From assembly GCA_036504895.1 (NCBI GenBank), contig DASXUJ010000065.1, positions 1 through 64,000 of the forward strand: 64,000 nt of DNA, read 5' to 3'. This DNA comes from Syntrophorhabdaceae bacterium (GTDB taxonomy: Bacteria > Desulfobacterota > Syntrophorhabdia > Syntrophorhabdales > Syntrophorhabdaceae). Positions within the stretch are counted from its first letter, which is position 1; the number at the start of each line of letters is the position of its first letter. Shown one piece after another: positions 60,988 through 62,533 of this stretch. The translations under genes were made by a program, and so were the position numbers. A model generated the notes under the pieces. It had not been told where the DNA came from, made no database searches, and saw only the letters and a program-made list of their open reading frames with translations.

Positions 60988-61812
60988 CTAACCTTCCGAT
61001 CTTCTCTTCACCACATCGCGCAAAAGTTGAATGCCTTTCGGGGAAAGGCCGAGAAGGCCGGCCTCTTTGTCGAAGGAGGCAAGGTTCCCATATCCCCCGA
61101 TATAGCCGTTCACCCTTGCCGTTGCCGTGGAATCGGTGAAATCCTTGTCGGCCGGATAGACGGCCCTGTACTCGCGGGCAATCTCTTTCCTGTTCTGCAG
61201 GTAATATTTCTGATGGTACCCTTCCGCACGATAGAACATAGTATAAGGAGCGATCTCGGTCATTATCCTGGTCCCCAACTTTCTTTCCAGGCTTTCTTTT
61301 GACGCGAAGGCGAGTCTCTTCTGCTCCTCGTTGTGAAACAAGATAAGGGACGCATACTGCCGCGACCACGAGCGACTCACGGGATCATGGCTCGTCCAGT
61401 AAATCTCGAGCAGTTTTTCGTAAGTGACACGTGACGGGTCAAAATCTATCTGAAGGGTCTCCGAATGGTCTCCGAGGCTATGGTAACCAGGGTTTTCTTT
61501 TGTCCCTCCTGCATACCCCACACGGGTGCGGACCACGCCGGGAACGAGCCCGAACCGGGCATCAGGTCCCCAAAATCACCCAAGAGCGAAGGTTGCCGTC
61601 TCGACTCGTGCCGGAGCCGATGCATCGATGGGCGGTATTACTGCTTTTTCCTGTATTTGTGTGGCCGTCTGAGCCATATTTGTCCCCTCCTTTGGCAAGG
61701 ACCTCTGGGTTTCCCCCGAATCTTGTTTCCGGCAGCCCCCGAAAAGAAAGATAGCTATAAAAGCGATGACGACAGTACCGGAAACTATGAGAAAAGGGCG
61801 TCTCTTAATCAC
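60988..61812 (-). CDS. msrA: selenocysteine-containing MsrA lipoprotein (peptide-methionine (S)-S-oxide reductase)
   Basis: 274 residues when the in-frame TGA at 61576-61578 is read as Sec (residue 79). The two open halves (61812-61579 and 61575-60988) share one frame. The sequence across the TGA is TFALG-U-FWGPDARFGLVPG followed by VVRTRVGYAGG, so U replaces the catalytic Cys of GCFWG. Other MsrA hallmarks are intact (GYHQKYY). The N-terminus has a lipobox (FGGC) after a transmembrane signal, so it is an exported lipoprotein. No Cys exists downstream, which fits a Sec-dependent enzyme without a resolving Cys. Start is GTG at 61812 with a weak ribosome-binding site. Confidence 0.88.
61540..61571 (-). 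promoter_or_regulatory. candidate bacterial SECIS stem-loop of msrA
   Basis: Directly downstream of the TGA on the minus strand: lower stem GGGGAC/GTTCCC (61566-61571 with 61540-61545, one G-T pair), an internal loop (CTGAT and TC), and an apical stem GCCC/GGGC with loop GGTTC. The loop begins with GG, 20 nt after the UGA, the geometry expected for SelB binding. Confidence 0.78.
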
Positions 61813-62533
61813 TTTTCAACATCTTATTTTTCATGATATATTCAACTATAAGCACGATCACGCCCCATTCAAGGCAAGAAGGGAACTCCTCCGGGACGCT
61901 CGTGAAATTTTGACATTTGATTTCTCCCGGCGCATCATGCGTGCATATAGGCCTCGAAGAGATCCTTCCAGGGCAGATCAATACGGGAAAGTCCGACAAG
62001 ACCCGGGTGATTGGGGAGTTGCGTTCCCTGTCAAAAGTGCTGTGTGTTCCATTGCGCGTCGGTGCTGTCCGGGTCATCTCTCCCTCCTTTTTCTGAAGAA
62101 GAACCAGTTAGATGATGACCTTCAAAGCGCCGGCGGCCAATCAAATCAGGAGCTTAGCCAGAGAACCCTTTTTCGAAATCAACCCCCTCCTCGATCTCAA
62201 TTCACGGGGTCGGGAGGGCTCTACCCTCGGAGCGCCCTGCGAGCATCGGCGGGTAACGGGTGCAGCCGAAGCGGAGATGATAGAGCCCTCCCGACCCCAT
62301 ATCCCCCAACTCGCATGATTTTACCTTTTTCATTGCCCAAAACTGTTTTTGACTCACCGCTGCATGTCGCCCAAAAGTGTGTGTCGCTCCGGGTTGGCGA
62401 CATTCCAGATTTCTTCTTATACGCGTTCTCAAGAGTGCCCCCTTTCGTTACCGTACTCATCGCGTCCTCTTGATTTTCGCCTTCCCGCGTATAACTCTTC
62501 CTGTATGAGAGAATCTCTGCCGGGAGACAAGGG
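61813..62533. other. 721-bp intergenic region with palindromic element B
   Basis: No gene was recognised. Open frames that cross it read into element B and share an identical-looking peptide with those of element A, showing they are read-through of the repeat. Element B occupies 62171-62306. The rest shows nothing notable. Confidence 0.5.
62171..62306. repeat. palindromic element, copy B (short form)
   Basis: About 135 bp. A perfect 18-bp inverted repeat is at 62205-62222 and 62280-62297, enclosing 57 bp. The core (GCCGAAGCGGA, GCGAGC, GGGTAA) matches copy A. It would form a long stable hairpin as DNA or RNA. Confidence 0.85.

Follow-up and report, generated by a model that had tools for sequence, protein, structure and literature searches.

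The 64,000 nt stretch of DNA analysed here (the window) contains a gene for a methionine-S-sulfoxide reductase A (MsrA) that is read through an in-frame TGA, and it is well supported that its product is a true selenoprotein with selenocysteine (Sec) at the UGA. Judged from its sequence, the protein is of the 1-Cys selenoprotein MsrA type, the PF20939 domain included; Sec in an MsrA is thus not new, and the window gene represents the known type in an exported variant, probably with a dual start. The explanation that best covers the observations as a whole, a Sec-MsrA of the 1-Cys type with Sec insertion, two starts and two compartments, is put forward with high confidence. For the part that concerns actual usage of both starts, GTG-1 and Met46, our preference is a modest one. 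The features of the locus are listed in Table 1.

Table 1. Features of the msrA locus in window coordinates, in order of translation.
Feature	Position	Strand	Details
msrA gene, read through TGA	60988..61812	minus	274 aa, GTG start, TAG stop
Export leader VIKRRPFLIVSGTVVIAFIAIFLFGGC, predicted, lipobox LFGG-C27	61732..61812	minus	n-region KRR; 12-residue hydrophobic mean 3.1
Shine-Dalgarno sequence (SD) AAGGAGG, 8 nt before the Met46 ATG	61686..61692	minus	duplex -12.6 kcal/mol
In-frame ATG (Met46), at which a cytoplasmic form of 229 aa is proposed to start	61675..61677	minus	linker position and SD
PF01625 (PMSR) catalytic domain	61183..61599	minus	Pfam, residues 72-210
In-frame TGA, Sec79, catalytic position (GUFWG)	61576..61578	minus	corresponds to Cys/Sec16 in the alignment with C. 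oremlandii MsrA
SECIS-like hairpin GCCCG-GUU-CGGGC, predicted	61548..61560	minus	begins 18 nt past the first base of the TGA
PF20939 (MsrA_helical) domain	61009..61149	minus	Pfam, residues 222-268

In the first-pass annotation, two segments of the same frame separated by one TGA at the position of the catalytic Cys of MsrA had been described, and this arrangement was confirmed on the minus strand. The ORF halves on either side of the TGA comprise 78 aa and 182 aa, and with the TGA read as U the complete product contains this single TGA as residue 79 in the context FALG-U-FWGPDARFG. The PF01625 match spans the U (E 2.7e-41, 141.8 bits vs. a gathering score of 23.7), and the PF20939 match is situated behind the catalytic domain (E 4.9e-8, 33.1 bits vs. 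23.7). Among solved structures, MsrA entries match best (4u66, 7c13, 4lwj and others; E 3e-58); the three entries named are taken to be the MsrA of Clostridium oremlandii (CoMsrA), going by PMC4333827 and PMC4479559. In the alignment with this known Sec-MsrA, a check proposed in the first pass, Sec79 falls on position 16 and the active-site residues Y47, E55, Q89, Y90, H137, and Y140 of CoMsrA are all kept. The gene is surrounded by genes for an exonuclease/GIY-YIG protein, an aquaporin, an Asp/Glu racemase, and an inositol phosphatase, and no redox partner for MsrA was found among these neighbours.

The catalytic TGA is present in all 13 matches with E below 1e-70 in a search of 60 relatives and in all 27 matches with E<=1e-50 in a search of 395 genomes of the phylum, the window being included in both cases. 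The close loci L029 and L031 belong to Syntrophorhabdus MAGs, which makes Syntrophorhabdaceae the most likely family. Since it is shared by every close orthologue, the occurrence of TGA at this codon is beyond chance. Another stop codon at the site in close homologues had been named beforehand as a finding that would count against Sec; only TGA or Cys codons were observed there, neither TAA nor TAG was seen among the homologues, and the stop is TGA in 49 of 49 distinct stop-bearing homologues, which stem from several phyla and have kept the catalytic residues. A pseudogene, a sequencing error or a TGA read as another residue would be in line with there being just one in-frame stop and with the draft state of the assembly (4.35 Mb in 138 contigs), but to these readings we assign next to no probability, considering the 49 homologues with the same codon, the full Sec machinery of the genome and, with regard to another residue, the three neighbouring genes that end in TGA. 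Conservation of the TGA in dozens of genomes excludes the sequencing error considered in the first pass, and pseudogene, sequencing error and alternative code were all rejected as refuted by the homologues.

All four genes of the Sec pathway for which a genome search had been suggested are present. The genome encodes a tRNA-Sec (selC) with anticodon UCA (69 bits), selA, and selB, as well as two selD copies (L020 and L021 on contigs C108 and C96), one with Sec (UGA in GAGUASK) and one with Cys (KSGCASK). A further selenoprotein, a glutaredoxin with the motif UPYC and without a leader (L157:1450-1760), is encoded on contig C128, which also carries selC; its gene is located directly after the frame of an ACR3/ArsB-like transporter.

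Sec had also been argued for on the grounds of a missing resolving Cys. The absence itself is correct, as there is no Cys downstream of the U and the only Cys besides it is Cys27 of the lipobox, and a Sec-MsrA without a resolving Cys was rightly called a known type, for it matches the 1-Cys selenoprotein MsrA of C. oremlandii. As proof of Sec the argument does not hold by itself, because 42 of 62 Cys homologues of the same type likewise lack a second Cys in their first 210 residues. Among the Sec homologue records, 33 of 53 have no resolving Cys, similar to the window MsrA. On the tree of the homologues the Sec label requires seven changes, three of which are forced by starred branches. Two homologues deviate in their architecture: L148 reads GUFU, with the conserved Trp codon also changed to TGA, which reflects either a sequencing error or a second Sec, and in L070, a frame from Bacillota, a Sec-MsrA is fused to an N-terminal part resembling MsrB.

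Downstream of the UGA, all five pairs of the hairpin are formed in 21 of 28 Sec genes vs. 2 of 61 Cys genes in the first set of homologues (Fisher p 2e-12, a value that overstates independence, the orthologues being related) and in 38 of 49 Sec genes of the larger set. The apical G, i.e., the base preceding UU, occurs in 49 of 49 Sec genes vs. 20 of 61 Cys genes. Pair 1 alternates between G-C (21) and U-A (21) and pair 5 between G-C (34) and A-U (8); across the alignment 92% of the cells pair, and changes on both sides were counted in 30 cells vs. 14.5 in shuffles, none of 500 shuffles being as high. The folding energy after the UGA in individual genes is not unusual compared to synonymous recoding, and RNAalifold on the alignment did not choose the hairpin, preferring a different, weak and nearly unstructured fold; support for the hairpin is therefore comparative. 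An Rfam scan of the window gave no match at all, SECIS included. Altogether, the alignment points to a conserved and covarying SECIS-like stem-loop with an apical G located 3' of the UGA. Of the two exceptional Cys genes, L027 of a Syntrophobacterales MAG has kept the full hairpin as well as a linker ATG with AAGGAGG, and a recent change from Sec to Cys is likely in this case.

With respect to the N-terminus, the gene had been described as encoding an exported lipoprotein. The lipobox leader is indeed real, albeit with the less usual Phe at -3, but the description is incomplete, since the lipobox is followed by a much stronger start, Met46, and the ribosome site at GTG-1 is weak. According to a simple test (hydrophobic leader plus upstream start), leaders are present in 44 of 49 Sec homologues. 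Lipobox leaders occur in the window gene, L105, L115, L112, L028, L032, and L037, a Tat motif with lipobox in L106, L107, L110, and L145, and Tat-like or plain signal leaders in L139, L144, and L149-L152. Going by these predictions, export leaders, with a lipobox or of the Tat or Sec type, are a genuine and general feature of the Sec-MsrAs in the clade, and the exported window MsrA is probably lipid-anchored, as predicted from its lipobox. The combination of Sec and export, considered unusual in the first pass, turned out to be the rule in the clade, with leaders in nearly all Sec-MsrAs found in Desulfobacterota. An upstream frame (MKNKMLKSD, 61805-61834, minus strand) ends across the GTG of the leader, and translational coupling is possible.

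The contrast between the strong SD at Met46 and the weak one at GTG-1 would also be explained if only the cytoplasmic form were made in this species and the lipobox leader remained untranslated; a homologue from Tindallia (L034) likewise has a leader without a convincing start. This is nevertheless improbable in our estimation: almost all relatives carry in-frame lipobox, Tat or Sec leaders, and amino acid changes in the leader are mostly rarer than synonymous ones, as shown by 12 close pairs, of which 10 have dN/dS values of 0.02-0.66, one reaches 1.08 and one is saturated.

Met46 is situated between the lipobox and the catalytic domain, 33 codons ahead of the U. An in-frame ATG at -37 to -20 was found in 27 of 46 leader-bearing Sec genes; due to the lack of a linker ATG in 15 to 19 leader-bearing Sec homologues, a dual start is not universal. 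Met accounts for 4.2% of the linker residues vs. 1.0% of those in the stretch that follows and 1.3% of those in the protein body. Ribosome sites at linker ATGs have a mean energy of -7.3 kcal/mol vs. -5.5 kcal/mol in synonymous recodings and are lower in 30 of 35 cases (Wilcoxon 8e-6), and a linker ATG with an SD of -7 or below occurs in 20 of 44 Sec-MsrAs (counting L108 at its Tat motif) vs. 8 of 68 controls (p 1e-4), both p-values being optimistic because the orthologues are related and their independence is overstated. The 68 controls are other exported-type genes of the same genome, picked by a simple ORF rule.

That only the exported lipoprotein is made, with the linker ATG and its SD as a chance occurrence or a relic of a cytoplasmic ancestor, is possible, though we rate it as rather unlikely. 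The leaderless homologues of haloarchaea apparently begin close to -34, the position expected for an ancestral start, and a moderate linker site is present in the eight controls mentioned above as well. On the other hand, none of the 68 control genes reaches the SD strength of the window site, and SD strength exceeds the synonymous expectation across many families although the residues encoding the linker SD vary (KEG, KEE, KER, RKE, KEN, EGGE); good linker sites are spread over roughly nine families of the phylum and also occur in Bacillota. For body ATGs the trend is reversed, their SDs being weaker than synonymous recoding predicts. We thus lean slightly towards one gene giving rise to both an exported and a cytoplasmic Sec-MsrA, an arrangement that selection on linker ribosome sites would have conserved in Desulfobacterota and Bacillota.

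In L106, L107, L108, and L110, the twin arginines of the Tat motif are encoded by AGG AGG, followed at a distance of exactly 6 nt by an in-frame ATG (RRSFMK), and the ribosome site thus lies inside the Tat motif, with an SD of -11.5 in L107, L108, and L110. Furthermore, in the exported Cys MsrAs L122, L124, L125, L132, and L133 (GCFWC) of the phylum, a strong ribosome site accompanies an in-frame ATG at -16. The dual start may therefore extend beyond Sec enzymes to ordinary exported Cys MsrAs.

Sec-MsrAs constitute an experimentally known family with the motif GUFWG/H (PMC13188914). CoMsrA, a 1-Cys enzyme, exceeds its Cys form 20-fold in activity and is recycled by glutaredoxin, not by thioredoxin (PMC4333827, which also refers to a 2011 study of a selenoprotein glutaredoxin). 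The MsrA of Clostridium (Alkaliphilus) oremlandii shares with the window protein the Sec at GUFWG, the absence of a resolving Cys, the helical domain and the active-site residues, but it is leaderless, comprises 209 aa and carries its Sec at residue 16 (PDB 4lwj, 4u66, 7c13; PMC4333827, PMC4479559); export leader, linker and putative second start set the window MsrA apart from it. An ordinary Cys MsrA that this genome also encodes in exported form (L001, contig C134) likewise combines PF01625 with an N-terminal signal sequence, but differs in its GCFWC motif, additional Cys residues, and the lack of both the helical domain and a linker ATG. A resemblance in expression is given by Neisseria PilB, an Msr reported to occur as a secreted form and as a cytoplasmic form initiated at an internal AUG (Wu et al. 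2005, as cited in PMC2907840). Here, such a pair of forms from one Msr gene is predicted from sequence. According to the same citation, PilB combines MsrA and MsrB activities and drops an N-terminal thioredoxin domain in its short form, whereas in the window MsrA only the leader would be dropped and the active site carries Sec. Neither an exported or lipoprotein Sec-MsrA nor one with a dual start was found in the literature searched, outside of which most subscription journals lie, and there was no direct match in it for lipoprotein NiFeSe hydrogenase as a precedent or, PilB apart, for dual localization through an internal start.

In the proposed mechanism, Sec79 would be inserted at the UGA by SelB and Sec-tRNA(UCA) with the aid of the hairpin just downstream. 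The Sec would attack methionine sulfoxide with release of Met, and because of the missing resolving Cys the resulting selenenic acid would be reduced directly by an outside thiol or selenol partner. Initiation at GTG-1 would yield the exported, probably lipid-anchored enzyme, and initiation at the strong Met46 site the cytoplasmic one. As its likely reductant we infer the UPYC Sec-glutaredoxin of the same genome; the exported form would presumably need a different one.

The msrA product is a protein-repair enzyme in which selenium replaces sulphur at the active site. Sec-MsrA is known from the leaderless clostridial enzyme, and here it appears as an exported enzyme that is widespread in anaerobic Desulfobacterota. 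This poses the question of how the selenenic acid is reduced outside the cytoplasm when no resolving Cys is present. Should both starts be in use, a single UGA-decoding gene would serve protein repair in two compartments, and both points would escape gene callers that terminate at UGA or settle on one start.
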